The notes beneath the pieces are model-generated. The model was not told where the DNA came from and made no database searches. It worked only from the letters and a program-made list of their open reading frames with translations. From NCBI GenBank assembly GCA_003116975.1, contig BGKB01000185.1, positions 1 to 64,000 of the forward strand: a DNA stretch of 64,000 nucleotides, written 5' to 3'. This stretch comes from Aurantiochytrium sp. KH105 (Eukaryota > Sar > Bigyra > Thraustochytrida > Thraustochytriidae). Made by a program: the position numbers and the translations under genes. Position 1 is the first letter of the stretch; each line of letters starts with the position of its first letter. Below, piece after piece: positions 11,301-32,105 of the stretch.

Positions 11301-14300
11301 ATTCGCTCACATATTCTCTCCTTATTTGTTCGCCTCTTTTTTTGCCAACTTCAACTATCCTCCACTGCCGCACGTGTTCACCGACAGCAAAAGCAACCAC
11401 ACTCAGCTCTTGCACTATACCTGCGCTGTCTACTGCTGCCTTTGTTTCGCCTCTGCCATTCCCCGCCCGCTTGATCTCGTGCCACAAAGCCACACCACAT
11501 TTTCTTTCTTTTTTGCGTCGTCTATTTTATCTTTCGCAACAACGCTGTCTGCGCGAGCTCTCCGCCCGCGCCGACGATATCAAGCCACACCACTTCGCTG
11601 TGCAAGACCTACGCATCGCGCACGCTGTTCTGTCCAATGACGCTGCCCAATTCTGCTGCAGGCAACGAAACCAACAAAGCGCTCGGTTCAAAAAAAAAAA
11701 AACAGGTCAAACTCATTAGCATGCTTTTCTCTTCAACAAAAGTCGCTCGATCCAATTCAAAGCCATAGATCCACCCTGTACACTTGGGTCAGCCTTTGCA
11801 AGCTCATTTGCAGTTCATCCGCCATCCCTCTCAAGCCCCAAGCGGACCAAAGCACATCAATTTAGCCAACCAACACCTCGATTGCAACACTAGCCTTGAC
11901 TTACACAAGCAGCACGCTGCCAAAACTGCTCTCGCTGATCTACCACATCCCTGCCAGTCCTTCACGAGCTCTGCAACCAGGATCGCGCAACTTTTGCTTG
12001 CTCTCGCACGCGTTGCCAGCGCTGCCTCACATTGTTCACTTTCACCTTGCTCTCTTTCTTGCACCTCGAACGCAGCTGAAATTCCGCTGATCCCCAGCCC
12101 AGCTCTTAAATAGGCTTGCCTCGCGCAAACCAAACCCTTCGCTGGCCTGCGACGCCATTTTCTATCCGTGCAGTCAGTCTGCAAGCCAATACCTTGCATA
12201 TACCACGCACTCTAGGCTCTCTGCCTCGCCAACGATACCTGCAACATGCGTCAACCATCTTGCAAACGAACAGATATATTGGCCAGCGTGCAAACGTGCC
12301 AGTCAGCTCAGCGAGCTCGTCTCGCCGGGTCTGCAGCTTGCGTAGCTGCTTCGCTCACGCGTACGCACATCATCTTCTCGTGAACAAACGCCATAAAAAC
12401 CACCGTCAAGGCCCTTGATCAATGCGAAAATGCTTGCATGACGCCACACTATCTTGCCAAAGCCTGCACGTAGCGTGCGCGGACGATCTACAGCCTTCCC
12501 AGCGAGATCTGCGGCGAACAAGCCCAGCCAGCTTGCCTTCCTTTTTGGCTCTCATCAAAGCAGCTTTTTGCATCCACTGCAGAGACAGTGACTCTGCCGA
12601 CGAGCTCAGCACTTGCTCCAGCCCTAGCGCCTACCTTGCACCGTCTCGCCCTGCCACGCGTGTACCTTTTGTTCACTCGCGCCGCAGCCAAAGCTTGCTA
12701 TATACATTCGCTGGCCCACGCTCTCTTTATGAGCTAGTCCTTTTTTGGTCAAGTTTAGCCACCCTTCACTGCTGCACGTGGTCGCCGACAGCAAAAGCAA
12801 CCACGCTCAGCTCTTGCACCAGACCTGCGCTGTCTACTGCTGTCTTTGTTTCGCCCCTGCCATCTCTCGCTTGCTCGATCTCGGGCCACAAAGCCACACC
12901 TCATTTTCTTCTTTTTTTTGTGTCTTTTTTTTTTCACAACAGCGCTGCCTGAACGAGATCTCCGCCCACGCCGACGAAATCGCGCCACGTCGTATTCCTG
13001 TGCAAGACCTACGCATTGCGTGTGTCGCACTGTCCAACGACGCTGCCCACCTCTTCTGCAGGCAACGAAACCAACAAGGAGCTCGGCTCAAATAACAAAA
13101 AAGAAAGGAAGCGACGCACTTGCGTGCTTTTCTCTCCAACAACAGTGGTTCGATCCAATCGAAAGCCACGGCGTCAAGCCACAGACCTAGACCAGCCTTT
13201 GTAAGCTCATTCGCAGATCATCCGTCACTATTGGCAGGCTAATCCCGGGCCAAAGCACATCAACTTATCCAAGCAACATCTCGTTTGCAACGCTGTCTTG
13301 ACTTACACGAGCCGCACGCTGCCAAAACTGCTCTCGCGCTTCTGTCATATGCTTGCCAGTCTTCCCCAAGCTCTGCGACAAGGATCGCACTGCATTTGCT
13401 TGCTCTGGCGTGAGTTGCCAACGCTGCATTATAGTATTCACCATTACTTTGCTCTCTTTCTTGCACCTTGAAGGCAGCTGGTATTTCTCTGATTCGCAGC
13501 GCAGCTCTCACACAAGCCTGTCCACGCAAGTTCGAACATTCGCTGGCGATGCGGCACCTTTTTCTATCCGTGCAGTCAGTCTACAAGCCAATTCTTTGCA
13601 CGTACAATGCACGTTGGGCTCTCTTGCCAAAAAAGCACACCTGCAACATGGGTCAACAATCTCGCAATTAAACAAATATGATCACCAGCGCCCATACGTG
13701 CCAGTCAGCTTGGCGAGCTCGTCTTGCCGGGTCTGCAGCTTGCGTGGCGGCGTCGCGAACTCGCGTCCATCTCCTCTTCAGTGAAAGAAACGCCTCATGG
13801 ACCACCGCCAAGGCCTTTGATCCATACAAGAACGATGGCATGACGCCACAACATCTTGCTAGAGCCTGCACGCAGCCTCCGCGGACGATCTGCAGCCTAT
13901 TCATCGACATCTGCGGCGAACAAGCCTAGCCAGCTTGCCTTCTTTTTTAGCTCTCGAAAACGAGCGGCTTTTCGCATCCACTGCAGAGACAACGACTGTG
14001 CCGACGAGCTCAGCACTTGCCTCGGCACTAGCTCCTACCTTGCACCGTCTCGCTCTGCCACGCGTGTACCTTTTGCTCACTCGCGCCGCAGCCAAAGCTT
14101 GCCATATACACTCGCTCACATTCTCTCTCTTTATGAGCTCGTCCTTTTTTGTTCAAGTTTAGCCAACCTTCACTACTGCACATAGTCGCCGACAGCAAAA
14201 GCAACCACGCTCAGCTGTCGCCTCAGTATTGCGCTGGTCATTCCTGCCTTTGTCTTGCCTCTGCCATCACTCGCTCGCTCGGTCTGGTACCACAAAGCCA

Positions 14301-15535
14301 CCCCGCATTTTCTTCTTTTTTGACCTTTTCTTTTTTACAACAGCGCTGCCTACACGAACTCTTTGCCCACACCGACCAAATCTAGCCACGCCACCTCTCT
14401 GCGCAAGACCTACGCATCGCGCGCCTTGCCCTGTCGTACGACGCTGCTCATCTCTTCTGCAAGCAACGAAACCAAACAAAGAGCTCGGTTCAATAACAAA
14501 AAAGCAGGAGACAAACGCACTAGCATGCTTTTCTCTTCAGCAATACTCGCTCGATCCAAACAAAAATCGTGGCGCCAAGCTATACACTCGGGTCATTCTT
14601 GGCAAGCTCATTTGCATATCATCCGTCACTGTTGGCAGGCTGGGGCCGGGCCAAAGCACATTAACTTTGCCAAGCAACACCTCGTTTGCAACGCTAGCCT
14701 TGACTTACACAAGCAGCACGCTGCCAATACTGCACTCGCTACGCTCTCTTATGCCTACCAGGCTTTCTCAAGCTCTGCGACAATGATCGCGCTGCATTTG
14801 CGTGCTCTCGCGTGCGTTGCCAACGATGTCCCATATTGTTCACTTTTACCTTCCTCGCCTTCTTGCACCTCGAAAGCGGCTGATATTTAGCTGATACGCA
14901 GCCTAGCTCTCAAACAAGCTTGCTCACGCACATTTGACCGCTCTCTGACGATGCGGCACCCTTTTCTATCCACGCAGTCAGTCTGCAAGCCAATACCTTG
15001 CAAGTACAATGCACGTTGGGCTCTCTTGCTTGACAATCACGACTGCAACATGCGTCAACCATCTTACAAGCGATCGCATACAATGTCTAGCGCCCATATA
15101 TGCCAGTCAGCTCAGTGAGCTCATCTCGCCGGGTCTGCAGCTTGCGTGGCGGCGCCGCGGGCCCGCGTCCATGTCCTCTTCTATGAAACAAACGTCTCAT
15201 GAACGAACGCCAAGGCCCTTGATCCATGCAAAAATGCTTACATGACGCCGCAAAATCTTGGAAGAGCCTGCACACAGCGTGCGCGGACGATCTACAGCCT
15301 TCCTAGCGAGATCTGCGGCGAACAAGCCCAGCCAGCTTGCCTCCTTTTTGGGCTCTCAACGAGTAGCCGCTTTTCGCATCCACTACAGAGACAACGTCTG
15401 TGCCGACGAGGTCAGCGCATGCCTAGGCACTAGCTCCTGCCCTGCGCCGCCTCGTCCTGCCACGCGCGTACTTTTTCGTGGCCGTGGCGTTGCCAAAGCT
15501 TGCCCCCTATTCTCTCCTTATTAGCTCGCCTCCAA

Positions 15536-16400
15536 CGACCGAGCGCCGCGGTGCAACTTCATAGTCCACTTTGCAGCGCGAAAAAAGTCACTTGACAAGC
15601 GCAAGTCTTGACGCAAGCTTGCAAGAGCTCAAGCTAATCAAGGATGGAAAGGCACGCCAGGCGCCTCGAAACAGCCTCGCCCGCGAGCTAGCCCGGCCTG
15701 GCATGCTTGGCATACTTGATGATCGCGACTCATTGAGGCTGCTCGAAATTAGAGTTGAAAGGCGCAATCCTGCACGATCTGGTGCTGACATGAACAAGAT
15801 CATCAAGGCGGACTCCGTCATCGTGGCAAAAATAAGCGTATGCTGAGGTGGCCGTGAGCGATGTCGAAAGCAGACAATGCTGAAAGTGCTGCTGCAAATG
15901 GCAATTTTTTTTTTGGCGGTCCTCTTGCGAAGATCCAAGTGAGGTCCCAGCCTCCTTCACGTTGCCTCTCCTGGCCTTGAGCACCAAGTCTCGTGCTACC
16001 TCAGACCAAATGCTTGCGCTCTAGAAAACGGCAAGAGCTAAGTCGGCGCCGCGGCCAACGCGCCAGTTCGTGCCGGCTTCTTTTGCCTGACATTTTGTCA
16101 GCGCATCGCAAGAATGACAGCAAGCACCAGGAGAGAACAGGATCATGTGATGTGTAAGCACGAATCGAGTGACGACAAGCTCATACAGGTGTCGTAATCT
16201 GGGCCTGAAACGCCTCTTCAAGCAAAAGTGTAGGGGCAATCATCAGTATGGGAAAAGATACGCATATCTTCGAAACCAGGCAGTCAGCAATCAAGACCAG
16301 CAAGTCCCGGCCATCTCTCATTTCCGATCAGACCTTGACCATATGACCACGAGTCAGCCTCAAGCTACCCTCTCTGCTACCGTTTTGTCTCTGAGATCAT
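15536..16400. other. Gap between satellite and second repeat family
   Basis: The satellite ends near 15,535. Short frames here (for example a 91-codon plus-strand frame from 15,571) show no known domain and no supporting context. I see no gene in it. Confidence 0.45.
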
Positions 16401-17720
16401 CGTTGAGAGCTTCTTCGACAAGCTTGCCAATGCTGCTTCAGCTCGGAAACGCGGCGGCGCATCTTCAATCTCGCTCAAGTCTAGCAAGCAGCACTCGTGC
16501 TCGTCGCGCCGTCTTCTTGGATCAGTTTTCGCATATTACACGCCTCAACGCAGCACGCCGGCCGGCCGGTAAGACCCAAACTCGCGCATGCGTACGCACA
16601 TACATACTCAGGTCAAGAAAATTCAAGTTTTTGGCAAGGCTGGTGGCGACCGTGTCTCGAATCGACGATCATGTCCGCTCTACACGCGAGATTATCTGGC
16701 AGACCCAAAGAGAGACTTTCAAAAGATGTCTTTGACCTGCTCAGCTGAAGAACGCAAGGATGTAACGATCAAGATTACAGGCGACCAAGTAGCTCTCACA
16801 ACGTCGGCCGCAGCACGCGTGGAGCGCTCGGTGTCCACGTTCGTGAGCCAGTGAGCCATTGGCAACGACACATTGTCCAAGCACACACCCCAGCCAAATC
16901 TCCTCGCGTGACTTTGACGCCCTTCGGCCTCTTGCTCGTCACCTGACACAGCAACAGCACAGCCCGTTTCGCCGAACGATGTCATTTCCACTGGTCGAGA
17001 TTCTTTTGCGTGCACGAGGCACAGCAGGACATCACGACTTTGACGACATGGCGCCTACAGTTGAGCCTCTGGTGCCAGCGATCGTGGCCGCATGAACTTG
17101 GGGATCGATGCCCCGCGATTGGCGCAAGCAGCGATCGACTTTGCTGTAGCCGACTTGAACGCGAGTTCGATGCAAGACCACCACGCGCACGAGTAAGCCA
17201 TTGCAAATTACATGCACACGCTGCGCCGTTCGTGTCTTCTTTGATTACAAGCGCTCGCGAGGGCACCTGAACGCTGCGGCAGCCTTTTCTTGGCCTTCCT
17301 CGTTGCTGCGCAAGAGGCCGAGACGCCGGGCGGCGCAAGACGGTCTTTCTGAGTTGCATGCCTCCACTGCGGTCTCACCATACTCAGCCTCCCCGCTGGT
17401 CTCCTGGCCCGCTTGCGCCGCCGGCACCCGCGCCTGGAGACGTCGCCTTCGCGCCTTCGCTGGTCGTTTGCATCATCGTTGGATCAATCCAACTCCAAGC
17501 CGCTCCGTGCGCCAAAGCGCTGCGGCGAGGTCTGCCACGGGCGCGCGCCCGCCTGCGCACATCGGGCTCTCAACACCACCTGGCGGGCCCGCGCGCTGCC
17601 TGAGCGCACTCCGCGGCGCCCAGCTTCGTCGTTTTGTCTTCGGCGGCGACGATGAGAGAGAGAGGTCGAGACTGGCCGAGTCTTCGTTTTCGCCGATTGT
17701 GCATGGCTGTTTGTTCATTT
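16400..17720. repeat. Degenerate ~0.95-kb repeat, left of the NLR gene
   Basis: Several blocks here recur in order right of the NLR gene. The block ctcggtgtccacgttc at about 16,829 matches 24,840. The block gatcgtggccgcat at about 17,081 matches 24,131 and 25,081. The block gattacaagcgctcg at about 17,240 matches 24,297 and 25,275. The block ctccgcggcgcccagcttcg at about 17,608 matches 24,709. The copies are degenerate and non-coding. The left part (16,400-16,900) looks like the tail of an earlier unit and the right part like most of a second unit, in the same orientation as the right-hand copies. Confidence 0.65.
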
Positions 17721-18548
17721 GCAAGGACCAATGATCCACTTTGCAACGCGCGGATAATACACTTGGAAGATGTACACATAAACGAGCTCGCTGCGCGGTA
17801 CGCTAGCCACCGACGCCCAGGTCAGACGCGTTGCTCACGAGGCAGCCTGGCCTGGCTCGCCTGGCCCAAGAGAAGGACCAAGTGTGAATGCTTGCCAGTG
17901 CTCGAAGAGACGTGCTCATCATCGCCGCAGCCGTCATCATGTTGATCCTTTGCAAGGAAAAAACAAAGTGCGTGCGCTCAACTCACCGCTGGTGTCGACC
18001 AATACTCTCGCCCAATACTACCGCGACGCCACAGGTCTTTGTTCTTATCAACGCTCTGAAGTCAAAGACAACTGCCCACTGCGACACTGAATTCGCCGAT
18101 CGAGTGGAAGACCATGATGATGATGATGATGATCCCACACAGACTGTCATCAAATTACTGTTGTGACCTCCTCCGCCGGACCCTGCTCTATCATCTCTCT
18201 CTAGCATCGCAGCCCAGTCTCCTCATCGCGGCCTGGGCCAGCCAGCCAGCTGTCGGCTCCGGGCTGGCCTGGTCTGGCGACAGAAGGCGCGCGAGGAGCA
18301 GCAGCCATCTCGGCCCAGGCCATGTGCCGAGACTCGCGCGCGCGCGCGCAGGGTAGCGCACAATCGGGCGAGCGAGCGCAGGTCGGTGCGAGCTAGGGAG
18401 CCGCAGACAGGCTGGCTGGCTGGCTGGCTGTCAAATCACACACACGCGCACCCGAGAACGATGGATCCAAGCCAACTTGCAACACCGCGGCGAACAAGCA
18501 ATCAATCAACCAAAAGCAAAGCCTTCCCTCCCCCCCTCTCTCTCCCCC

Positions 18549-19050: not shown

Positions 19051-22000
19051 ATGAGTTGGGCGACGCGCTTGCTCGCGCTCTTCAAGGGAGGCCGCGACGA
19101 TGGAGCAAGCGCCGAGGACGAGCCGAGAGACGAACCTCCTGCAAGCATTGCCATCCTCATCGTACACGACCCTACGGACGAGACCGTGGCCGAGCAGCTG
19201 GTCGACGCGATTCAGCCCCGCCTCAACGTGCCCGTGCGCACCGGCAGCCACATCACAGAGGCCGAACTGGAGGCCAAAAATGCCGAGGTCGCTCTACTGC
19301 TCGTGAGCAAAAAACTCGAAGACAATTGGGAGCTCATCGAGGCAGTGGCAAAGGTTCTCCCCAACTCACTTGTCCCCATCCTCATCGACGAAGCCATGGC
19401 TAATACAAAGGACTGGATAGGCGCGCTTGCCTGGTACATATCTGACGACTTGTTCATCAACTTTTGCAAGCCCACAAAGGACGCCGCTGATTGGGTGATG
19501 GCCGAAGCTCTTGCCGCAAAAGGCCGTGTCGTAGGTATGCCAGGGCGCCGGAGCTTTCAGGTCTTCCTCTCGCACGAGTGGGGCAAAGACAAATGGGTAC
19601 ACAAGATGGCCATCGAACTCGCGCTGCGACTCCGCGACTACGACATTGACGTCTGGCTCGATGCTCAGCAAGTGTCAGGCAGTATTCATGGAAGTATGGC
19701 TGATGGCATCGACTCGTCAACCGTATTCCTTGTCCTCGCGACCAAGAGGTACATGGAAAAGATCAACAAAGGTGACCGGTCAGACAACTGTCTCAAGGAG
19801 TTCCAATATGCTGGCAACAAACGATTTGACCGCATCGTTGTTGCTGCGCTGGAAGAGGACATGACCAAGCCCGGAACGGGGTGGACTGGGCGATTTCAGC
19901 TCGCGCTCGCAAGGCAAGCACCAGTGGATCTTTCCGAGAGTTCATGCAATGGGACTTTTTCGGACGAGGCGATCGAACGCCTCGCCAATGCCATTCGCAT
20001 ACGCATCGCGACCCCCGAGGCTTCATCGGACCTCACCCCTCTGATGCGCGACATTTATCCTCGCCTGAACCCGTGCAGCTCAGAGGCATGGGCCAAGGGC
20101 AAGGCGGAAAACTATACCCTCGGCACGCGAAGCTGGATCATCGACGAGCTTTGCGACTGGTACAACAAGAATCAGAGCGCCGTCTTCATTCTTGTGGGCG
20201 ACGGCGGCGTCGGCAAAAGTGTCATCATGGCCGAGCTTTGCCACCGTGGAGGCGCTCTGAAAACTGCTGAAGATGTAAAAAAGGGTAAGGCGGATGAACG
20301 CGTCGAGCTGCGCCGAAAGTCGTCACGTGTACGTAGCCTGTGGCGACATAGCAAAACCGAGCGCCAGCCTATCTCGGTGGCAGCGTACCATTTCTTTCGA
20401 CACGATGATGGGACCGCGGCTTCACCTGCTGAAGCAATTCTAAGCATTGCGTGGCAGCTGTGCCTGACCGTGCCTCATTTCCCTGAAACACTCGACCAAG
20501 TAAGCTTTGAGGGTCTTCGCGAAAAGACGCTGGCAGACCTTTTCAAGACGATTCTCGTCGATCCTGCAACCATGCTCGGCCCAGACCAGATGCGACAAGT
20601 GGTCGTGCTCGACGCCCTCGACGAGTGCAGCAAGAGCGACGATGTTTTACGAAAGGTCATTCGTACGTGGAAGGATGCAATGCCGGCATGGCTCAGCTTG
20701 GTCGTGAGCACACGTCCCGAAGGCGAGATCCAGCGCGGAATCACCAACAATAGCCTTGATTCTAAAGTGCTGGAGCTCAAGGACGAAGAGAACTTTCGCG
20801 ACATCGAAAAGCACATCGAGCATTTGCTGTGCGACATGAGAGATACCGTGGAGCAAAAGAACGTTGCTTCTTGCGCCAAGATTCTTTCCGAGCGATCCGA
20901 AGGTCTCTTTCTCTGGGCGAGCTTCCTTCCCGAGACCCTGCACCGGATGTACGAGGAGAAACGAGGTGGAGTGCTGACCTTGCAGGACATCTCTCACAAA
21001 GACGCCATCCCTGATGGGCTTGGCGGCATGTTCAAAGAGTACTTTGAGCGCCTGCAAGAAAAAGTTGGCGGGGAGAAAATGTACAAGATGCTCCTGGCGC
21101 CAATCGTAGCTGCTCGTGAACCGCTGAGTGTCGAGCAACTAAGCGCAGTTCTGCAATTAGAGCAAGATGATATGGATGATATTGTCGACGACGCGAGCAA
21201 TCTCTTACATCGAGGCGGCGATGGACGTGTGGCGCTCATTCATAAACGAATGGCAGATTGGCTCTCAGATAAGAAGCAGAGCGGAAGACATCTCTTCGTG
21301 AAGAAAAAAGACGGGCATAAGCAATTGGCCGACTACTGCAGTAGCTCGCGCGACGGCGTTTTTTCGCTCCGTCACGCCGTCTTTCACCTCGTCAAGAGCG
21401 GCAGGCGCGCTGAGGCTTTCGAGCTCCTGAATGACTTTGCATGGGTAAAGAGCGCCATCTCTGCCGGTGACGATGAAGCGCAAAGACGCGCCACAATCGG
21501 AAACCTCATTCGCGACTGCGTCGAACTCGGCATCTACTTTGCGCCCGAAAGTGATACGCCCCGCTTCCTAAGCAAAGCAGTGCATGCCCTCAGCTACGAT
21601 CCCGAAGAACTTTCGTCGCAGGTTCTGGCGCGTCTTGGTCATGACTCGAAAGATCCCCTGGCGCTCAGTCTACAAACACCTGATCAGCCATGGTTGGAGC
21701 CTACTTGCGTCACTCTTGCTCATCCCCGCGACTTTTTGCTGCACGTGTTGAAGGGGCACTCTGGTTCGGTCTTAGGCGTGGCGATACATGGCGACACCAT
21801 CGTCAGTGGGTCCAATGACAAGACGGTGCGCATCTGGAACGCTACGTCGGGCGAGGAGCAGCACGTGTTGAAGGGCCACTCTGAATCGGTCTGGAGCGTG
21901 GCGATACAGGGCGACACCATCGTCAGTGGGTCCATTGACAAGACGGCGCGCATCTGGAACGCTACGTCGGGCGAGGAGCAGCACGAGCTCGGGCATTCTG

Positions 22001-23166
22001 GGCCGGTCATGGCCGTGGCGATACAGGGCGACACCATCGTCAGTGGGTCCTTGGACAAGACGGTGCGCATCTGGAACGCTACGTCGGGCGAGGAGCAGCA
22101 CGTGTTGGAGATGCTTTCTCGTCCGCTCTACAGCGTGGCGATACAGGGCGACACCATCGTCGGTGGGTCCTTGGACAAGACGGTGCACATCTGGAACGCT
22201 ACGTCGGGCGAGGAGCAGCACGTGTTGAAGGGGCACTCTGATTACGTCAAGAGCGTGGCGATACAGGGCGACACCATCGTCAGTGGGTCCTCGGACAACA
22301 CGGTGCGCATCTGGAACGCTACGTCGTGTGAGGAGCAGCACGTGTTGAAGGGGCACTCTGAAAGCGTCTGGAGCGTGGCGATACAGGGCGACACCATCGT
22401 CAGTGGGTCCGTTGACAAGACTGTGCGCATCTGGAACGCTACATCGGGCGAGGAGCAGCAGGTGTTAAAGGGGCATTCTGATTGGGTCAACAGCGTGGCG
22501 ATACAGGGCGACTCCATCGTCAGTGGGTCCTCGGACAAGACGGTGCGCATCTGGAACGCTACGTCGGGCGAGGAGCAGCTCGTGTCGAAGCTCGTGATGA
22601 AGGGGCACTCTGGGCCGGTCAGCAGCGTGGCGATACAGGGCGACACCATCGTCAGTGGGTCCAATGACAAGACGGTGCGCATCTGGGACGCTACGTCGGG
22701 CGAGGAGCAGCACGTGTTGAAGGGCCACTCTGGTCAGGTCAGCAGCGTGACGATACAGGGCGACACCATCGTCAGTGGGTCCTCGGACGAGACGGTGCGC
22801 ATCTGGAACGCTACGTCGGGCGAGGAGCAGCACGTGTTGAAGGGGCACACTAGTTATGTCACAAGCGTGGCGATACAGGGCAATACCATTGTATCACAGT
22901 CACCCAATGAGACTCTTTACTGGAACGCTCGAACGGGCGAGGCACCGGACGTGGATGAAGCGGAGGCATCGACTACACCTGGAACAAACACGTTGGTGAA
23001 CGTTGAGAACGGAACGCATGTGAAGCTTAGCGAGGGCATAGGCTTCACGACGGATCACGGAATCAATAGTAAGGTATCAGCTCGCGAGGGAGGTGTTTAC
23101 GTTATTGGCGACGTTAGCGGGAGGGTTCACATCCTGCATATCCAAGGAATCGAACCTGGGACCTAA
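19051..23166 (+). CDS. NLR-like receptor: TIR-TIR-NACHT-WD40 protein (1,371 aa)
   Basis: This is a STAND-type signalling NTPase with two N-terminal TIR-like domains. TIR-1 (residues about 32-150) has beta-strand cores and an NWELIEAV segment at 92-99. TIR-2 (about 167-300) starts FQVFLSHEWG and has NCLKEF at 246-251, where Glu250 matches the catalytic Glu of NAD-cleaving TIRs. The NTPase has a P-loop GDGGVGKS (383-390), a Walker B VVVLDALDEC (517-526) and a VVSTRPEGEI sensor region. Residues about 899-1,300 form ten WD40 repeats of about 40 residues, nearly identical even at the DNA level. They vary mainly just after GHS and at the residue before D-K-T. Unit 3 is one codon short and unit 7 has four extra codons. 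The ATG at 19,051 is the first in frame. By family knowledge WD40 would sense, NACHT oligomerise and TIR signal or cleave NAD+. The biological role as immune or allorecognition receptor is inferred. Confidence 0.92.
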   Translation: MSWATRLLALFKGGRDDGASAEDEPRDEPPASIAILIVHDPTDETVAEQLVDAIQPRLNVPVRTGSHITEAELEAKNAEVALLLVSKKLEDNWELIEAVAKVLPNSLVPILIDEAMANTKDWIGALAWYISDDLFINFCKPTKDAADWVMAEALAAKGRVVGMPGRRSFQVFLSHEWGKDKWVHKMAIELALRLRDYDIDVWLDAQQVSGSIHGSMADGIDSSTVFLVLATKRYMEKINKGDRSDNCLKEFQYAGNKRFDRIVVAALEEDMTKPGTGWTGRFQLALARQAPVDLSESSCNGTFSDEAIERLANAIRIRIATPEASSDLTPLMRDIYPRLNPCSSEAWAKGKAENYTLGTRSWIIDELCDWYNKNQSAVFILVGDGGVGKSVIMAELCHRGGALKTAEDVKKGKADERVELRRKSSRVRSLWRHSKTERQPISVAAYHFFRHDDGTAASPAEAILSIAWQLCLTVPHFPETLDQVSFEGLREKTLADLFKTILVDPATMLGPDQMRQVVVLDALDECSKSDDVLRKVIRTWKDAMPAWLSLVVSTRPEGEIQRGITNNSLDSKVLELKDEENFRDIEKHIEHLLCDMRDTVEQKNVASCAKILSERSEGLFLWASFLPETLHRMYEEKRGGVLTLQDISHKDAIPDGLGGMFKEYFERLQEKVGGEKMYKMLLAPIVAAREPLSVEQLSAVLQLEQDDMDDIVDDASNLLHRGGDGRVALIHKRMADWLSDKKQSGRHLFVKKKDGHKQLADYCSSSRDGVFSLRHAVFHLVKSGRRAEAFELLNDFAWVKSAISAGDDEAQRRATIGNLIRDCVELGIYFAPESDTPRFLSKAVHALSYDPEELSSQVLARLGHDSKDPLALSLQTPDQPWLEPTCVTLAHPRDFLLHVLKGHSGSVLGVAIHGDTIVSGSNDKTVRIWNATSGEEQHVLKGHSESVWSVAIQGDTIVSGSIDKTARIWNATSGEEQHELGHSGPVMAVAIQGDTIVSGSLDKTVRIWNATSGEEQHVLEMLSRPLYSVAIQGDTIVGGSLDKTVHIWNATSGEEQHVLKGHSDYVKSVAIQGDTIVSGSSDNTVRIWNATSCEEQHVLKGHSESVWSVAIQGDTIVSGSVDKTVRIWNATSGEEQQVLKGHSDWVNSVAIQGDSIVSGSSDKTVRIWNATSGEEQLVSKLVMKGHSGPVSSVAIQGDTIVSGSNDKTVRIWDATSGEEQHVLKGHSGQVSSVTIQGDTIVSGSSDETVRIWNATSGEEQHVLKGHTSYVTSVAIQGNTIVSQSPNETLYWNARTGEAPDVDEAEASTTPGTNTLVNVENGTHVKLSEGIGFTTDHGINSKVSAREGGVYVIGDVSGRVHILHIQGIEPGT
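21741..22945 (+). repeat. Intragenic array of ten ~120-bp WD40-coding repeats
   Basis: Blocks such as gtggcgatacagggcgacac and catctggaacgctacgtc recur about every 120 bp with very few synonymous changes. This near identity points to recent duplication or gene conversion between units. The variable codons cluster at the same few places in each unit, which is not expected from random decay. Confidence 0.93.
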
Positions 23167-24000
23167 TCGTGCGGCTTTGCGTTACCGTGTGCCATGCCTG
23201 CGTGGGTGGGCGATCGACTTTAACTGCTTGTGATCACTTACTGCGATGCAATAGTAATATCTCACTTATAAACTTTTGCTTTTTTTGTTCTGTTATGACC
23301 TCGGAGACTTGTGACGCCGGCGCCGCAACTCCTACAATTGCGAGGAGAGCGCACCTCAAGCACTCTTTTGCTGATGAGAAGCTCTTCCAATTGGTGCTGT
23401 TTCGAGGATCCTTTTTGAAAGACTGCCGACACTTACCTAGGCATGACAACAGTAGCAACTCAAATCCTCCGTCTGCCGACCTTCTTGAGTGGCATCATCA
23501 AGTGTGCTTTGTCATCAAATCGGCGTTCCTTCTTCCCTTTCTTCAAAAATGGGGCCGCAAAGAAGTTTTGGCTGGCATGAAAGAGCCGCGCAAGAATTTC
23601 CGCGGCATCATGACTCAAAATACAAATCTGGATACGACGCGCAGAGGCTAGATGGGACCGACTGCGATTGCTCTGAGCGCCTCGAATTCTCGACTGAAGT
23701 CGACCCATCTAGCCACGGCCAGCCTCGAGTTCCGTGTCTGCCGCGACTCTGCCTCTCATCCCATCGCAGGAACTGCTACAAAAAGTGCCCTTGCCTGATC
23801 GTACCCGTAAGCGTGATATGGCTCAATGACACTTCGGCGCTGGCCTGAATAGTTTCCCAGGGTCGACACCGAGGCCGACGCTCGTCTGCTACACACCTAT
23901 TGCAAGAAGCTACTTCGCCTTGGCGCTACTGATTTGTCTCAAGTATACCAAAAAAGGCAGAGCAATATTGCAGGCGACAACAGGCTTGACGATGTGGCAT
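23167..24000. other. Downstream of the NLR gene, no gene recognised
   Basis: A 160-codon open frame follows the NLR stop but shows no domain, and neighbouring frames are equally long. I treat the stretch as non-coding. The second repeat family begins in or near its right end. Confidence 0.4.
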
Positions 24001-24099
24001 TGGCCCAGCACGCACGCCTCAAAGGGCACAGTATGCATGACCCAGAGCATGACGGCGGTCCTCCTTGCAATGTTTTCTCGCTACACGTAGGCCTTTCGC

Positions 24100-25600
24100 T
24101 TGCTGCTCGTTTGACACCGTGATTGCAAAGCGAGCGGTCGTGGCCGCATCGACTCATTGACCTGAACCCTCCTTGGTCGCCAGCATCGGCTTCAAGAACG
24201 ACTTTCACAAAGTTGAAGTTGCAAACAGCATGACTGTGGGCTTGACGCGGCGCGTGACATTTTGCACAGCGCATCAACGCTACCTCGTTTGTGCCTTCTT
24301 CGACTGCAAGCATTCGTCTTGGCCTCTGGACGCTGCGTAAATTTTTTCTTCGCCTTTCTCGCTGCTGTTCACTAGGTCGCGTCGTTGGTCAGCGCGGGAC
24401 CACCTTTTCGACTCGCGCGCCTCCATTCACCGCAGCTGTCAGACTCAGCCGCAGTCTTAATCTCCGTTCCTCTCGTGGCTCGCTCGCCTTTGCGCCTTCG
24501 CGCGCCTTCGCGCCTCCGCCTCCTCCTCGTCGGTCGGCTCAATCAATCTCCAAGGAATTCCTTGCAGCAAGACGCTGAGGCGAGAACTGCCACGAGCGCG
24601 TGCCTGCCTGGGCACTTCAGAGGGTCTTGACGCCATCCGTCGCCGCTTCCCCCCCGCCCCCACCCCCCCTCTTTCCCACCGCGCGTGCTACCCTGCCACA
24701 TCCTGGCGTCTCCGCGGCGCCAGCCTTCGTGGTCTGTCTGCCACGGCAACGATGTTGTGCAAAACGAGGAGATGTTTCCTTGTCTTGTTTGCAGCGCGAA
24801 CAAGGTTACACGACACCGGCGACAGCATGCCTCGAGCGCTCGGTGTTCAAGTTCATCAGCAGGTGACCCGTTGCCAACGACGAATCGTTCCGCCGTACAG
24901 CGCCAGCCAAATCCTCTCGCACAGATAATTTCGTTGCCCTTCCACCTCTTGCATGCTACGCGAAACAGCAGTAGCACGCACGGACCGTCTCGTCGAATGA
25001 GGTCATTTCAACCGTCGAGCTCTTTGCGTACCTGAGGCCCAGAAGCAAGCTGCAACAAGCACAGTTTAACATTTGTGCGCGAACGATCGTGTCCGCTCAA
25101 ATTTGGGTTTCCATTGCCCCGCATTACGTCTTCAATGGCATCAACAAAAAGATCAGTGCCAGCAGCCGCAATGATAATCAAAAAATACAACGTTGCATCC
25201 AAATTGGCTACAAGACCGCCACGCGCATGAGCAGCGTTGTGTACAGCACACTTTCGCTGCGTCGATCAAGGTTTCTCCGATTACAAGCGCCCGCCAGAGC
25301 CTGGGACGCTCCGGCAGCCTTCTCTTCGTCTGGCTTCCTGCTGCACCCGAGGTCGAGTCGTGATGCAGCGTGAAGAGATCGATTCGTCTCGCTCGTCTCC
25401 GCTGCAGCTCGCCAGACCCAGGATTTCCCCTCCCCGTGCGTTTTGCAGGCGCCGCGTCCACCTTTGCGCCTTTGCGCCGTCGCCTCTCCACGCTTACCAC
25501 GCATCGTCGGGTCAGTTCGTGTCAAGAGCGAGCGCGCGCGCGCCTCCTTGGCTCGGCATCAAGCCTCCAGACTGCGTTATAGCGACCTGGCGTAGCGCCG
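24100..25600. repeat. Two tandem degenerate copies of the ~0.95-kb repeat, right of the NLR gene
   Basis: Matching anchors at 24,131 and 25,081, 24,297 and 25,275, and 24,570 and 25,518 give periods of about 950-980 bp. The same anchors recur left of the NLR gene at an offset of about 7.05 kb. The sequence is GC-rich and degenerate with no conserved frame. The second copy breaks off near 25,600. Confidence 0.65.
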
Positions 25601-25982
25601 AGCATCATCGTCTGTGACCGTCGGTAAAGGAGCGGATGATTATGTCTCGTCTTGTTGGGAGGTAGAGCTGACATGTCTGATGGTCAGCGAAATCAAAGAA
25701 ATGACGTAAACTGGAACCGATCGCCATGACAACATCTTCCTATCCGTTCCATGGATCCATCAAATTATCACTTCCATCCAAACATGCAATGTGCCAAAAA
25801 CCAACAAAGAAATCAGAATAGACCGAGCAAAGAGAATTTACTTTGGAGGGTGACAAGAGGGCGACTGTCCCCTTTAGGGCAAGATCTAATGCGTCGGTCT
25901 TTTGCAAGATCAACTTACGCGACATTCTCTTGTACAGACAGGGAAAATCAGCATCCTGGCAGTTAGTTTACTTTTTCTCAGG
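25601..25982. other. 3' flank of the ankyrin gene
   Basis: This AT-richer stretch follows the end of the repeat and precedes the stop codon of the minus-strand ankyrin gene. It probably holds that gene's 3' UTR. I see no other feature. Confidence 0.4.
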
Positions 25983-27170
25983 CTACGCAACGCAGCGAGC
26001 AAGCATACTCTGCGCATTCGCGAATGCCTCCAAAGAGCTTGAGGCGACAGGTGACAGTTCTACGCCGTACGCGAGAGCGAGTATTTTCGCGGCGCTGTGC
26101 GGCGTTGCACTTGTTGCAGGCAAACTTTGAAGTGCGACACAAAGTTGCTCGCGAGCACGAGCCTCAAGCTCGCGGCGAACGCCTTCGGCTTCAAGCAGGA
26201 CACTGGTACTTATAGTGGACAGGATAGGCAAGCAAAGAAGGCGCTGGTGAAGAGTTTTGCTCCGCGCAATTGCGGCGAGCGCGTTTTCGCGCGTGCCAGG
26301 CTGCCGAAGCATGTTTTGGATAAAGACTTTGGGGAGGCAGCGTGACAGTCTCGGATCTGCTTGTCGAAGGCAAAAGGCGACGGCGTCGTCGCGCTCGTAG
26401 CGAAGCGCCGCTTCGAGGCAGGATGCATCGATCATGGTGTCACCGTTTTCGGATGCGTGCAAAACTTGGCGAGCGCACATGAGGTTGCCGCGAGCGAGCG
26501 CAACACGCAAAGCGGCTGGGCCATTTTCGCGTGCGACACGCGGCGAGGCTCGCAAGAGTCTCGCCACGATGCGCTCGTGGCCGCCCTCGCAGGCCCACTC
26601 GAGCGCTGAGGGCGAAGGCGCGACGGGGCAGGTTTGCGGGAGCTCGAGCAGGGCTTGGACGACGGGCTCGTGGCCATTGCGCGCTGCGATGCGGAGCGCG
26701 TAGCTGTCGTCGGCGCAGACGTCGACGCGGGCGTCGCTGAGAAGACAGCGAACCACATCAAGGTGGCCGCCCTTGGCCGCGAGCCCGATGGCCGCCGAGC
26801 TCTCCGCGCTCGGGTCGACGCTGCAGGTCCATGCCAGCAAGATTTGCACGCATTCCAGGTGGCCGTTCATGGCGGCGCCGACGACGGCCCAGTTGTACAA
26901 GTCGCTCGGGTCTACGCGGTAGTCCTTGCGAAGCGCCTTGAGCACGTCGACGTGGCCCTTTTCTGCGGCGCGGCGGACCGCCTCGTTGCGGCCGGCGCCG
27001 GGGTCCACCTCGGGCCTCGCGAGCAGCCATGCGACGACCTCGGCATGTCCATGCGCTGCCGCCTCGCGCAGACAGGCCTGCCGGTCGAAGCTCGCGTCTG
27101 CGTCTCGCAGCGCCTCTCTCGCGCGCGCCAGGGCCCCCGCGCGGCACGCCTCGCGCGCCGCTGCCTCCAT
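25983..27170 (-). CDS. Ankyrin-repeat protein (395 aa)
   Basis: Consecutive ankyrin-like units of about 33 residues fill roughly residues 15-250. Examples are AAAHGHAEVVAWLLARPEVD, AAEKGHVDVLKAL, AAMNGHLECVQILL, AAKGGHLDVVRCLL and ACEGGHERIVARLL. The C-terminal part (about 250-395) is alpha-helical looking and has no clear match. No signal peptide, membrane segment or enzymatic domain is visible, so a cytosolic binding or adaptor role is the most that can be said. The ATG lies in an alanine-rich N-terminus. The gene points toward the NLR gene and is divergent from the GH31 gene across a 1.4-kb spacer. Stand-alone ankyrin proteins of this type are abundant in protists and their targets are usually unknown. 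Confidence 0.85.
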   Translation of the reverse strand: MEAAAREACRAGALARAREALRDADASFDRQACLREAAAHGHAEVVAWLLARPEVDPGAGRNEAVRRAAEKGHVDVLKALRKDYRVDPSDLYNWAVVGAAMNGHLECVQILLAWTCSVDPSAESSAAIGLAAKGGHLDVVRCLLSDARVDVCADDSYALRIAARNGHEPVVQALLELPQTCPVAPSPSALEWACEGGHERIVARLLRASPRVARENGPAALRVALARGNLMCARQVLHASENGDTMIDASCLEAALRYERDDAVAFCLRQADPRLSRCLPKVFIQNMLRQPGTRENALAAIARSKTLHQRLLCLPILSTISTSVLLEAEGVRRELEARAREQLCVALQSLPATSATPHSAAKILALAYGVELSPVASSSLEAFANAQSMLARCVA

Positions 27171-28575
27171 CTCTCCTCGCGGGTCGCGCCCCTGCCTCCT
27201 TATCAGCCTGCCTGCGCCTGCCGCTGCTCTTCTTGCCTGTGCTGTTGCTGGTCCATTCTCGCTAGCCCTGCTGCTGCTGCTGCTGCTGCTGCCGACGGCC
27301 GCCCGCGCGAGGAGAGGCTGCCGAGCCCAGCCGGAGCTGCCTCCCTGCTCACAGCATCATGTCATGTCATGTCGTGCGAGGCAAGGCGAGGCGAGGCAAG
27401 CCAAGAGAAACAAGGCAAGCCAAGGCCCAGCCGACCCAGTGCGGTGGCCGGCGACAATTCCGCGGCGGCCGAGGACAAGTCCGCGGCAGACTCCGCTCGC
27501 ATCGCCCTGCGCTGCTGCTTCTGCAGCCAGCAGTGCCGTCGCCGCAGCTGCACACTGTGGCTGGCGTCGGTCGCGCTTCGTCGCCCCTGATGACGCCGCC
27601 GCCTCTTCTCCCTCACCTTCACGTTCCGTGCCAAGCCGCCGCCCCTGAAATCCCTTTCCCCGCTCGCTCGCTCCGCTCAGCCCGGCTCAGCTCAGCTGCA
27701 GCTCGGCTCGTCTCCCTCCGGCTCCTCTCTCCCGCTCGCCTCCAGCCCGCCGTGGCCATCCATCCATCCATCCGTCCATCGGTCCATCCATCCATGCATC
27801 CTCCCGATGCGAGCTCGACTTCATCCACCCATCCAACGGACCCGCACACACGCGCGCGCAGCAGGCAGGCAGGTGCAGGCGGCTGGCTCCCGTGGGGCGC
27901 TGCTCGGCTTTCTGCTGCGCCCCCTGTGCTGCTCGCATCAGCCAGCAGCAGCTAGCGTACGTCCCGCACGCGTCGCCCCGTCCTGCTCAAGCCGTGCTCT
28001 CTCCCGCCTGCCTGCCTCTGCCTCGCTGGCCGCTCGTCCCACGCGACCCGGCTGAGAGCGAACGGACGAACGCTCGCACGCGCTGCTGCCTGCGCCTGCG
28101 CCGCCCTGCTCTGCTTTGCCCTGCGCGCCGCCCGCTGACCCGCCCTGCGGAGATGCGATGCGGAGGAGGTGCGGTGCGGAGGAGGTGCGGTGCGAGGGAT
28201 GCAGCGCAGGGCGGCCATGCGGGCGGGGCGGTGCAATGCGGTGCGGCACGTTGCGGCGCGGCACGTCGCGGTGCGAAGAAGTCGTCCATTCTCCTTGCTA
28301 CTACTACTGCTAGTGGCCACACACCCACCCGCCCACTACACTATACATAGGCGACTACACAGCTGCAGCCAGCAAGAGTTGATTCTGTGAAAGAGGAGGA
28401 GAAAGCTGCTGCTGCTCACAGGCCAGCCACGGCCGTAGCAGACCCGCAACGAGCCAGCCAGCCAGCCAGCCACAGCGACCGCCAGCTGCTGCAGCTGCAG
28501 CCGGCGAGCGAGCGCGAGACAGACAGGCAGGCAGACAGGCAGGCAGACAGACAGAGGCCGCCAGGCAAGCCAGCC
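27171..28575. other. Divergent intergenic region between ankyrin and GH31 genes
   Basis: This 1.4-kb spacer is rich in simple repeats: CATC runs near 27,757-27,800, AGGC/AGCC-type pentamers near 27,380-27,430, GGTGCGG repeats near 28,160-28,260 and CAGA/CAGG runs near 28,516-28,555. It must hold the promoters of both flanking genes. Long frames in it follow repeat composition and show no domains. The GH31 frame stays open to 28,387 but without an ATG. Confidence 0.5.
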
Positions 28576-31239
28576 ATGCAGCGCAGGTGCGAGCCCCTGG
28601 TGGCGCACGTGGAGCCCGTCGAGGAAGGCCTCGCGGTCCACGGCAAGCGCGGCGAGCTGCTCAAGGTGCTCGCGCTGCGCAAGGACATCGTGCACGTGAC
28701 CCACTTGCCCGAGGGCGGCGTCTGCGCGCCCGTGGAAAAGTCCTGGGTCGTCGTCGGCGACGAGGGGTGCCCCGAACGCAGGAGAGACGACCACGAGACA
28801 CTCAACGGACCGGAAGACAGTACCGTCGTGCAAACCTCCGTCAGCGACGATGGCGCCGTAGAGCTCAGAACCGACGCCCTCCGCGTCGTCGTCGGCGCCA
28901 ACAAGCTCGGAAGCGACCGCCCCTTTCGCCTCCAATGGTTCGCCAATAACACCGACGAGTCTGCTGACACCACTGCCGCCGCCACCACCACCACCACCAC
29001 CACTACCGCTACGACAGGAGCAGCAACTTCTGCGGCTTCCGCCAAACCATTTGCCGAGGACGCCGTCCTCAGCGCATACGCCTACGAGCTGCCCCATGGC
29101 AAGGCCACCCATCGCATGGAGCGCAAGCCCGACGTCGAGTACTATTACGGCGTCGGCGAGGTCACCGGAAACCTCAATCGCGCCGGCCGCCGCTTCGAGC
29201 TCGCCTGCCGCGACGCCATGGGCTACGACGCCGAAACGAGCGACGCTCTCTACAAACACTTTCCCTTTTACATCACCTACAACAAGGAGGCCGGCATTGC
29301 CTACGGCATCCTCTACGACCAACTCTGCGGCGGCTACCTCGACCTCGGTCGCGAGATCTCCGCCTTTCGCGGCAACTTTCGCACCTACGCGAGTGTCGCC
29401 GGCTTTGTCGACTACTATCTCATTCTCGGCCCCACTGTCGCCGAGGTTGTAGAAAAACTCGGTCGCCTCGTGGGCCGTCCCGCTGTTCCGCCCGCCTGGG
29501 CGCTGGGCTACGTGGCTTCCACCATGACGTATGCCGACGCTCCAGACGCGCAGCAGCGTCTCGAGGCCTTCCCGGCCCTCTGCAAGCGCAACGAAATGCC
29601 CTGCGACGGCTTTTACCTCAGCTCCGGCTACACCATGGACGCCGACGGCAACCGCAACGTCTTTACGTGGAACAAGGACCGCGTCCCGGACCCTGAAAAC
29701 ATGCTTGGCGCATTTCATCAGCACAACATGGGCGTCATCGCAAACGTCAAGCCCTGGCTGCTCGAGGCGCATCCCGAGTATGCCGATATGGAGGCCCTCG
29801 GTGGATTTTTCCGCACAAACAACGACAACGACGACGAATTGCACCACGCGTACCAGCAACACCATCTCGACAACGCCAGCGACGCCACTCCCTATGTCAA
29901 GGGCTGGTTCTGGAAGGGTGGACCCGGCACCTTTGCTTCGGGTTCCTACCTCGACTTTACCAACCCTGTAGCCTTTGATTGGTGGAAGGCCAAGCTCAAG
30001 GAACAGGTTCTGGCTCCCGGCGTCGATGCCGTCTGGAACGACAACAACGAGTACGAGGTCGACGACGATGGCGCCGTCTGCTACCTTAATGACGCTCCCA
30101 TCGCCTCGCTCGGGCGCACGCTTCAGCCCTTTCTCATGGCCCGCGCATCCTACGAGGCGCTTTGCGAAACGCGTCCGGAAAAGAGACCCCTCGTCGTCTC
30201 TCGCTCGGGATGTCTTGGCATTGCCAAGTACGCTGCGCAGACCTGGTCCGGCGACAACAGCACGTCCTTTCACACGCTCAAGTGGAATATTCCCATGAGC
30301 CTTGGGCTTTCGCTCTGCGGTTGGGTTGGCTGCGGACCTGACATTGGCGGCTTCGTCGGCAATGCAGTCACCCCCGAGCTCTTTGTGCGCTGGATCCAGC
30401 TCGGCATTTACATGGCGCGCTTCAGCATCCACTCGTCGAGCTGGAAGGCTTCCGCCGCTAGCACTGCAAATGCACCCAGCAACGCAGACGATACTGCCGC
30501 CGAGACCGAGGTCGCCAACGTCGATGGCTACAATCTCGATTGCACCAACGAGCCTTGGATGTTCCCCGAAATGACCGACACCGTGCGTAGTCTTTTGCAG
30601 CTTCGCGTTCGTCTGCGTCCTCTTTTGCTTAGTCTCCACATTGAGGCGTGGCGCACGAGCGCGCCCGTCATGCGCCCGCTCGCGTACCAGTACGTGACGG
30701 ATGCCAACGAGCGTTCGCGCACCGAATCCTTCGAGTTCACCCTTGGACCGAATCTTCTCGTGGCTGCGGTTCTTGATGCCGATCAAACCACTCGTTCCGT
30801 TTACTTTCCTGGTGACGCTGTTGGCGAGTTCTGGTGCGACCTCGATTCTGGCATCTGGTACAGCGCTGGTACCGAGGCGCATGTGCACGCCCCACTTCAA
30901 GGCCGAGCCTTTGGCGCACCTGTTTTCCTGCGCAATGGTGGGGGTCTTGTTCTCGCCGACTTCGAGGATGCGCGCGTGCGAAACGTCATTCTTGCCGCAC
31001 ACCCAGCGCAGGCGTCGCAGGACATCGTTGTAGAGTGGTACGAGGATCCCACGCCGGGCCAGGAAGGCGTCATGCGCAATGCTTCTGATGTTGCCCATAT
31101 TTGCGTGCGGGCCACCGCGACCGCCAACGAGGTCATCATCAACTCCATCGAGCGTACCGGTCCCCCTGCGCCCGTGGATGAGATCCGCTTTGAGTTGGTT
31201 CCTTCGGATCATCGCCAGCTCATTCAAGCTTCTGACTAA
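28576..31239 (+). CDS. GH31 family alpha-glucosidase (887 aa)
   Basis: This is a retaining glycoside hydrolase of family 31, expected to release glucose from alpha-glucosides. The N-terminal beta-sandwich part carries YYGVGEVTGNLNRAGRRFEL and the FPFYITYNKE segment typical of the family. The (beta/alpha)8 barrel has AVWNDNNEYE, whose Asp after WN is the nucleophile position. It also has QTWSGDNSTSF, whose Asp is the acid/base position, followed by GPDIGGF and later MRPLAYQY. A low-complexity Thr/Ala insert lies near residues 130-155. No signal peptide or membrane anchor is visible, so a cytosolic enzyme, for example in reserve-glucan breakdown, is likelier than a secreted or ER glucosidase. 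I chose the ATG at 28,576 because the longer frame has no earlier ATG. The nucleophile box has Asn where most members have Met (WxDMNE). It faces the dolichyldiphosphatase gene tail to tail. Confidence 0.93.
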   Translation: MQRRCEPLVAHVEPVEEGLAVHGKRGELLKVLALRKDIVHVTHLPEGGVCAPVEKSWVVVGDEGCPERRRDDHETLNGPEDSTVVQTSVSDDGAVELRTDALRVVVGANKLGSDRPFRLQWFANNTDESADTTAAATTTTTTTTATTGAATSAASAKPFAEDAVLSAYAYELPHGKATHRMERKPDVEYYYGVGEVTGNLNRAGRRFELACRDAMGYDAETSDALYKHFPFYITYNKEAGIAYGILYDQLCGGYLDLGREISAFRGNFRTYASVAGFVDYYLILGPTVAEVVEKLGRLVGRPAVPPAWALGYVASTMTYADAPDAQQRLEAFPALCKRNEMPCDGFYLSSGYTMDADGNRNVFTWNKDRVPDPENMLGAFHQHNMGVIANVKPWLLEAHPEYADMEALGGFFRTNNDNDDELHHAYQQHHLDNASDATPYVKGWFWKGGPGTFASGSYLDFTNPVAFDWWKAKLKEQVLAPGVDAVWNDNNEYEVDDDGAVCYLNDAPIASLGRTLQPFLMARASYEALCETRPEKRPLVVSRSGCLGIAKYAAQTWSGDNSTSFHTLKWNIPMSLGLSLCGWVGCGPDIGGFVGNAVTPELFVRWIQLGIYMARFSIHSSSWKASAASTANAPSNADDTAAETEVANVDGYNLDCTNEPWMFPEMTDTVRSLLQLRVRLRPLLLSLHIEAWRTSAPVMRPLAYQYVTDANERSRTESFEFTLGPNLLVAAVLDADQTTRSVYFPGDAVGEFWCDLDSGIWYSAGTEAHVHAPLQGRAFGAPVFLRNGGGLVLADFEDARVRNVILAAHPAQASQDIVVEWYEDPTPGQEGVMRNASDVAHICVRATATANEVIINSIERTGPPAPVDEIRFELVPSDHRQLIQASD

Positions 31240-31505
31240 TGGCCCGCATGGTATAATCATTCGGCTGCTTCAGAGCACCATACATACATTTGACCAAAAT
31301 CGCCTGCAAACTTTTGCAGGATTCATTCGGCCAGCCAGACCTTTTATTATTATTATCATAATTATTATTGTGTTCCTTCATCTATGTGCAAAACAAGTAG
31401 TAGTGCTAAAAAAAAAACCTCTTTTCAATCAACGTTCTTCTAGTCCAGTAATAATGAAAAGTTATTAACGTGGATCCGCAAGGTCTAAATAAAATCCAAG
31501 ATCAG

Positions 31506-32105
31506 TCAACCCGTTTTTTCCTTGGCGTCTGAGCCGGTTTCGACAAAGCCATAGGCAGCGAGACGCGTCCATACGAAAAACCATCCTGCGGCAACACTGA
31601 AACCAGCAGCCAAGCCAACCAAAACCTGGTCCACACTGTGATACTCCAAGTAGACGCGGCTCCACGCCACGACCAAACTGCCTACCACGAGGACGATCGC
31701 CACGAGCCGCGGATACCGAACGAGATGTGAACGCTCACGCATAGACGCCAAGACGGCAAAGCCTGCTAAAAAGGCCATAAACTGCGAATGGTTGCTGGGC
31801 ATACCGTACCTGCCAAAGTAGACGAGATGCGCTTTATCTGCGGGGCGCGGCATGCGAAGCACGTGCTTGAGCACCAGGTTCACGGCGACATTGCCCATTT
31901 GGCCGACAAACATAAACACTAGCTTGCGCGGGAAACCCAGCGCAAGTCCGATCGACACATAGGCCACCACGGCAAAGATGGGCGCCAGCGTGCACAGCGC
32001 GAGCACGTGGCCCACGAGGTCCCCCTCGTCATAGTGGACGAGCGTCAGCGAGAACGGCACCTTGTGCGACGCCCGCACCGCGGCCTCGGCGTCGACGGCG
32101 TCCAT
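31506..32105 (-). CDS. DOLPP1: Dolichyldiphosphatase, PAP2 superfamily (199 aa)
   Basis: This enzyme removes a phosphate from dolichyl diphosphate on the ER lumen side, so that dolichyl phosphate can be reused for N-glycosylation. All three PAP2 signature motifs are present: KHVLRMPRP near residues 78-86, GMPSNHSQ near 100-107, and SRVYLEYHSVDQ near 150-161, with the catalytic His of motif 3. The PSNHSQF form and the overall length of about 200 residues are typical of the DOLPP1/CAX4 subfamily rather than general lipid phosphatases. About four hydrophobic segments fit an ER membrane protein. The ATG at 32,105 is the first in frame; the frame reaches farther upstream only through non-ATG codons. 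It is divergent from the TMEM65-GAF gene. Confidence 0.93.
   Translation of the reverse strand: MDAVDAEAAVRASHKVPFSLTLVHYDEGDLVGHVLALCTLAPIFAVVAYVSIGLALGFPRKLVFMFVGQMGNVAVNLVLKHVLRMPRPADKAHLVYFGRYGMPSNHSQFMAFLAGFAVLASMRERSHLVRYPRLVAIVLVVGSLVVAWSRVYLEYHSVDQVLVGLAAGFSVAAGWFFVWTRLAAYGFVETGSDAKEKTG

Follow-up and report, generated by a model that had tools for sequence, protein, structure and literature searches.

Receptors of the NLR type that carry hypervariable WD40 repeats are best known from filamentous fungi, for example from the HNWD family of Podospora (HET-D, HET-E and HET-R), in which the WD40 unit comprises 42 residues. In the Podospora unit, positive selection has been reported at codons 7, 9, 25 and 27, which are paired around codons 8 and 26 under purifying selection and all lie on top of the modelled propeller (PMC1805685), and a further report gives seven positions of high dN/dS, namely 10, 11, 12, 14, 30, 32 and 39 (PMC12222747). 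HET and TIR domains are remotely related, and the presence of NLRs in filamentous fungi has been suggested to go with multicellularity (PMC4986451). A survey of highly repetitive WD40 proteins comprised 305 proteins, 50.16% of them bacterial and 35.74% fungal, with none from animals or plants, and its main text does not mention NACHT or TIR (PMC5587647). The present analysis concerns a gene for a TIR-NACHT-WD40 receptor in a stretch of 64,000 nucleotides from Aurantiochytrium sp. KH105 (assembly GCA_003116975.1, contig BGKB01000185.1, positions 1 to 64,000), which is referred to as the window. Judged from its sequence and that of its relatives, the gene is probably a member of a large germline NLR family serving non-self recognition, diversified by repeat shuffling and diversifying selection and provided with a TIR output.

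The window gene is a single open frame from ATG to stop, and its 1371-residue product combines the features by which NLR and STAND proteins are recognised, namely a NOD NTPase with P-loop and Walker B, an N-terminal TIR effector and C-terminal WD40 repeats. A tandem array with a period of 120 bp was located by Tandem Repeats Finder (TRF) at 21741-22889 (9.5 copies, 85% match), and the Pfam scan of the full-length protein returned ten WD40 stretches. Within this gene alone, the columns with the most distinct residues are 10, 24, 8 and 7, and the internal identity of the repeats is 0.789 by our own measure over aligned columns, which is distinct from the programme used in the survey. The residues after GHS listed in a preliminary description, made from the letters of the window, agree with the translation, except that GH is missing from unit 4, which reads LSRPLY, and that unit 10 starts with GHT.

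Repeats were analysed in 30 of the 59 related loci, drawn from a first look that scored 34 of 569 candidates; loci L031 and L081-L084 were read later. The counts rely on a profile from three window units, by which diverged units may be missed, and yielded 308 WD40 units, of which 192 are gapless over 39 columns without insertion and 206 are usable when insertions are allowed. Among the 192 gapless units, column entropy is highest at columns 8 (3.75 bits), 24 (3.39) and 10 (3.22), followed by 7 and 26, and the probability of hitting exactly columns 8, 24 and 10 by random draw is 1.1e-4; together with the TRF array, these peaks bear out the near-alike units with variable residues noticed at the outset. 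Between the variable columns, V9 is kept in 176 of 192 units and D25 in 191 of 192. The proposed codon-level check of selection across repeats likewise gave a positive result, with a ratio of nonsynonymous to synonymous differences (pN/pS) of 1.17 at the five columns (bootstrap over genes 1.08-1.30) against 0.31 (0.28-0.34) at the other 34. Combinations of the five residues are distinct in 187 of 206 units, and repeat number ranges from 5 to 18 with a median of 11 (29 loci, the split L017 excluded). Internal repeat identity, by the measure described above, is at least 0.7 in 21 of the 30 loci and at least 0.85 in four. As a separate observation, the conserved Ser of column 21 varies at codon bases 1 and 2 (mismatch 0.41 and 0.42), as if AGN and TCN codons were both present.

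The location of the variable columns on the propeller was derived from the published hotspots R1-2, R1 and D-1, which are defined as the three partner-contacting residues on the top face of WD40 propellers (PMC3419727). In a mapping of the motif to these definitions made by us, column 8 corresponds to R1-2, column 10 to R1 and column 24 to D-1. The variable codons are predicted to fall on surface hotspots and not on buried positions, which favours the surface variability proposed in the preliminary description. Its likening of the pattern to HET-D, HET-E and HET-R also holds, in that columns 8/10 and 24/26 around V9 and D25 have the arrangement of the Podospora HET-D/E codons 7/9 and 25/27 (PMC1805685).

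The size of the family was determined in the assembly of the same strain (76.0 Mb, 367 contigs), in which a search with the NACHT region had 78 of 78 candidates scored and gave 77 matches. With the split between close and distant relatives set at 63% identity and 65 close rows merged by eye, 59 related loci, the window gene included, were obtained on 52 contigs; their NACHT regions are 63-100% identical, and several are partial or cut by a contig end. Further genes of the TIR-NACHT-WD40 type, which had been suggested as a search target, are thus present in the host assembly itself. The remaining 12 are distant NACHT relatives with 27-39% identity, and some of these occur in doublets (C44/C122, C31/C93, C38/C63, C83/C85, C121/C20) whose members have nearly the same identity and query range, as conserved alleles would. 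Relatives were also sought in viral and prokaryotic contig collections and none was confirmed, a result of little weight because these collections were not built for protists.

Some of the 59 loci are probably haplotype copies. A polyunsaturated fatty acid synthase of the PfaA type is represented by pieces (930 and 456 bits) that form near-equal pairs on C72/C155 and C290/C61, which suggests that two haplotypes are retained in parts of the assembly; no single piece reaches the whole-protein cut-off of 1010 bits for the PfaA model, which also gives sub-cut-off matches in 11 of 14 control genomes. A search for a second haplotype of the window with positions 25950-40000 gave only matches shorter than 100 bases elsewhere in the assembly. 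At C27, the locus sits among multi-copy repeats, and the stretch of C56 expected to represent its empty site, placed by polyketide-synthase-like genes, had no blastn match to L030 or to the C27 flanks, which are multi-copy repeats. For 36 of the 59 loci the nearest contig end is at most 20 kb away, against an expectation of at most 19%, and on contigs of at least 100 kb this holds for 21 of 43 loci against 5.1 expected. This enrichment may reflect subtelomeric placement or mere assembly breakage; the exact sequence (TTAGGG)4 is absent from the assembly. Among the 30 loci, the 5' flank of the window gene is nearest to L012 (92.4%), and its NACHT region (94.6%) and 3' flank (90.5%) are nearest to L002; because the nearest loci differ along the gene, this is taken as a sign of recombination among the copies.

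The conservation of the functional motifs was examined in family alignments. The P-loop GxGGxGKS and the Walker B motif DALDE are each present in 34 of 34 NACHT rows covering the respective site, from 35 proteins, and the NACHT region of the window protein matches NPHP3_N (3.9e-20), HTH_TANC1 (4e-7) and NACHT (9.6e-6, just under the cut-off). Two TIR domains had been proposed, of which the second stands: residues 167-327 cut out alone match TIR_2 with an E value of 1.3e-12, and the family profile of this domain finds the SEFIR structure 5y8f (E 2.8e-4) and the TIR protein 3h16 (E 3.3e-4) in the PDB, over about its first 70 positions only. Residue 250 is Glu in 32 of 33 proteins covering the site and Asp in L027; by its motif this Glu is a candidate for the catalytic residue of an NADase, the site lying outside the alignments to 5y8f and 3h16. 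Since the P-loop and Walker B are found in all rows and the candidate Glu in nearly all, the majority of the examined copies look competent for signalling.

For the first of the two proposed TIR domains the picture is mixed. Residues 1-170 cut out alone matched no TIR model at E up to 1. Two TIR_2 stretches were counted in a full-length scan at E up to 10, with the position known only for the better one, 171-310. Among the N-terminal domains of 23 paralogues, three match TIR_2 at E up to 1, the best at 3.2e-4. The family profile of the N-terminal domain has a top PDB match of E 0.34, which is not a TIR, with no TIR among the matches, and hhalign gave no alignment between this profile and that of the TIR domain. 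The N-terminal domain may possibly represent a degenerate TIR-like fold.

Change between homologous copies within this one genome was followed in eight hand-picked pairs. In three pairs with NACHT regions about 95% identical, nonsynonymous change is concentrated in the variable WD40 codons: 24 of 48 against 34 of 351 other codons in L001/L002, 37 of 48 against 16 of 347 in L003/L011, and 23 of 35 against 18 of 291 in L025/L029. The twenty-repeat pair L081/L082 (C2, C262) has repeats 2-8 replaced and differs much less in the rest; within the replaced block, nucleotide identity at the variable codons is 45% and 26 of 31 of them are changed, with the NACHT side and flanks 91-93% identical. In a further pair, the apparently collinear L023/L029, repeat number differs, with 11 against 8 repeats and not one shared combination of variable residues; at both loci the distance to the near-equal synthase copies, on C155 and C72, is about 53.5 kb. 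The two variable blocks of the unit also appear to reassort, since column association, strongest inside the block 7-8-10 (8-10, z 5.4), is mostly absent between blocks, with the exception of 7-24 (z 2.7); codon triples number 149 distinct against 162 expected. For this analysis and that of codon differences, L020, L027 and identical units were dropped, leaving 172 units.

Several observations weigh against this reading. The collinearity of L023/L029 rests mainly on the distance to the synthase, and their close flanks, matching at 90-91% over 817 and 289 bases, could be a flank that was copied along with the family members. Four of the eight pairs have little or no excess of change at variable codons, namely L016/L020 (3 of 65 variable against 11 of 453 other WD40 codons), L026/L027 (3 of 30 against 11 of 206), L083/L084 (3 of 60 against 23 of 425) and L007/L013 (10 of 60 against 52 of 416, no marked excess), and the first three retain their repeat number and nearly all variable residues. 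Because these pairs are little changed, turnover is not uniformly fast, so that the rapid evolution and the differences in repeat number and variable codons anticipated at the outset apply to some copies and fail for others. Homogenisation within genes is real but small, framework nucleotide identity being 0.902 within and 0.879 between genes (reached in 0 of 500 label shuffles). Only 4 of 183 distinct gapless units occur in more than one gene, three of them in L016/L020, and whole-unit exchange between loci is accordingly rare or not recent. In addition, L017 is broken into two frames, and the frame of L023 is without the part matching the first 304 residues.

Under the preferred reading of a diversified receptor family, the WD40 array would form a single beta-propeller or a pair of them, with a protein target bound on the top face; the target might be a pathogen protein, a guarded host protein or a protein of another strain. 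Binding would open the NACHT NTPase and the receptor would oligomerise, whereupon the clustered TIR domains would act, most likely through NAD+ consumption or the production of a nucleotide signal, leading to cell death or to shutdown or growth arrest. New specificities would come about as whole or partial repeats are duplicated, lost or exchanged, with purifying selection maintaining the scaffold of the blades and diversifying selection holding the contact codons different.

This reading contains two narrower ones. A repertoire of receptors for pathogens or parasites, comparable to plant R genes and without strain discrimination, is judged evenly balanced in its probability. The dozens of dispersed paralogues, with variable residues nearly all different in the 30 examined, have an anticipatory look, and the TIR-NLR architecture serves defence elsewhere; however, the sequence holds nothing that separates such a repertoire from allorecognition, and Podospora repeats of like design serve allorecognition against HET-C (PMC12222747). 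A strict allorecognition receptor, discriminating self from non-self between strains, seems rather unlikely. It would be in keeping with the Podospora-like codon pairs and with the median repeat number, functional Podospora alleles usually having 11 repeats (PMC12222747), but repeat number by itself is weak evidence. The host is not known to have a cell-fusion biology.

The sharp borders of the variation raise the question of a targeted mechanism. In 10 of the 30 genes, picked for low framework divergence, mismatch between repeats within a gene is 0.50-0.53 at all three positions of the variable codons, and third-position mismatch is 0.066 in directly adjacent codons and 0.063 farther off; as the two latter values are nearly equal, there is no hitchhiking gradient around the variable codons. 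Among codon differences within genes, those involving two or three nucleotides make up 1542 of 2294 at the variable columns and 850 of 4420 at the others, although these pairwise cells are non-independent. Because the variable codons are randomised at three bases and the touching codons are not, mutation or micro-conversion may be aimed at the contact codons. Such a codon-level mechanism of diversification is nonetheless considered improbable, and a similarly low probability is given to its wider implication, an antibody-like germline repertoire in a eukaryote with a dedicated process directed at the contact codons of each WD40 blade. Fine-scale gene conversion together with long diversifying selection predicts much the same pattern and also explains the sharp borders, and nearly unchanged pairs exist.

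An ordinary multigene family with relaxed loop constraint or decaying copies, and without selection for diversity, is an equally doubtful account. Loop residues are tolerant of substitution, L017 and L023 appear damaged, some family rows contain single stops, at least one locus (C27) lies amid multi-copy repeats, and the four little-changed pairs would suit it. On the other hand, columns 9 and 25 of the same loops are nearly fixed, in the 10 selected genes the corrected distance between repeats of one gene is about 13 times as large at variable codons as at framework third positions, and the P-loop and Walker B are universally retained in the rows covering them. An assembly artefact, in which collapsed or mis-joined repeats produce false variants, is very improbable: the loci do cluster near contig ends, where assemblies break, but errors would hit all columns, whereas the variation sits on 5 of 39 with the frames open, and loci on C34, C40, C70 and C9 lie well inside their contigs.

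The features of the window gene are collected in Table 1. For the C-terminal tail, a separate Pfam scan of residues 1300-1371 gave no match.

Table 1. Coordinates in the window of the receptor gene, its parts and its duplicated flank.
Feature	Position	Strand	Basis or remark
TIR-NACHT-WD40 receptor gene	19051..23166	+	Open frame of 1371 aa; 91% identical to a full-length paralogue on C19
N-terminal domain of uncertain fold, possibly degenerate TIR-like (residues 32-166)	19144..19548	+	Profile comparisons
TIR domain (residues 167-327)	19549..20031	+	TIR_2, E 1.3e-12
Candidate catalytic Glu of TIR (residue 250, motif CLKEF)	19798..19800	+	Conservation and motif
NACHT NTPase and winged-helix region (residues 350-900)	20098..21750	+	NPHP3_N, HTH_TANC1, NACHT
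P-loop VGDGGVGKS	20194..20220	+	Family alignment
Walker B VVVLDALDEC	20599..20628	+	Family alignment
Ten 40-residue WD40 units, each hypervariable at columns 7, 8, 10, 24 and 26	21745..22941	+	TRF, Pfam, column entropy
C-terminal tail	22942..23163	+	Also carried by close paralogues; may form a cryptic final blade
3' flank duplicated with the family	23169..24255	+	Up to about 1.1 kb recurs beside many paralogues

Elsewhere in the window, the region is characterised by long frames without introns, which together with the synthase pieces of the assembly would suit a thraustochytrid-type protist. A second NLR-like protein of 1920 aa is encoded at 49757-55519 (minus strand), with a TCAD9 match (9.7e-20), an APH-kinase-like stretch, a weak AAA/NACHT P-loop region and ankyrin repeats, and an ankyrin-repeat protein of 395 aa at 25983-27170 (minus strand). 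A retrotransposon-like frame at 2087-6835 (plus strand), presumably of the Ty1/copia type, is flanked by two similar stretches, at about 1466-1974 and 6752-7271, which share a 13-base tandem repeat. Positions 7400-18100 hold no frames longer than 250 aa and have a G-poor skew, and parts of this region match C82, C56, C51, C332 and C362 at 91-94% identity.

In comparison with known systems, the Podospora HNWD proteins share with the present family a NACHT domain followed by much-alike WD40 units, hypervariable codons that form two pairs, each flanking an invariant residue, and differences in repeat number. Combinations of variable residues are mostly distinct in both, with 55 of 69 units at four positions in Podospora (PMC1805685). 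By spacing, five of the seven positions reported for Podospora seem to be columns 7, 8, 10, 24 and 26 here, whereas columns 6 and 33, the counterparts of positions 10 and 39, show conservation (PMC12222747). The differences are a TIR domain in place of the HET domain, a host that seems non-fungal, 59 loci against a family of 10 members, and a unit of 40 instead of 42 residues. A HET domain, which defines HNWD, was sought in two N-terminal fragments at E up to 1 and none was found, TIR_2 and one unrelated weak model being the only matches, so that the window gene is not an HNWD member by definition.

Further afield, the internal identity of at least 0.7 in most examined loci and the diversity at hotspot residues are shared with the highly repetitive WD40 proteins (PMC5587647). 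Bacterial NACHT sensors diversified by diversity-generating retroelements likewise have varied contact residues, but there a reverse-transcriptase system varies C-type lectin domains (PMC10907252). Plant TIR-NLRs and bacterial TIR-STAND proteins also join a TIR effector to a STAND NTPase and a C-terminal sensor. These have leucine-rich repeats and NB-ARC, in contrast to the much-alike WD40 units and the NPHP3_N-type NACHT of the present family. No report of such a family in stramenopiles was among the matches listed for titles and abstract beginnings in the open-licence literature, and three traits appear to be new: how large the TIR-NACHT family is, the lineage that hosts it, and how very sharply its variation is bounded. 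A TIR family of 59 loci in a thraustochytrid would show that like contact codons are varied outside the fungi, in receptors that, by their design, would work like those of the Podospora HNWD family; with it one can ask whether defence or allorecognition was the original role of such repertoires.

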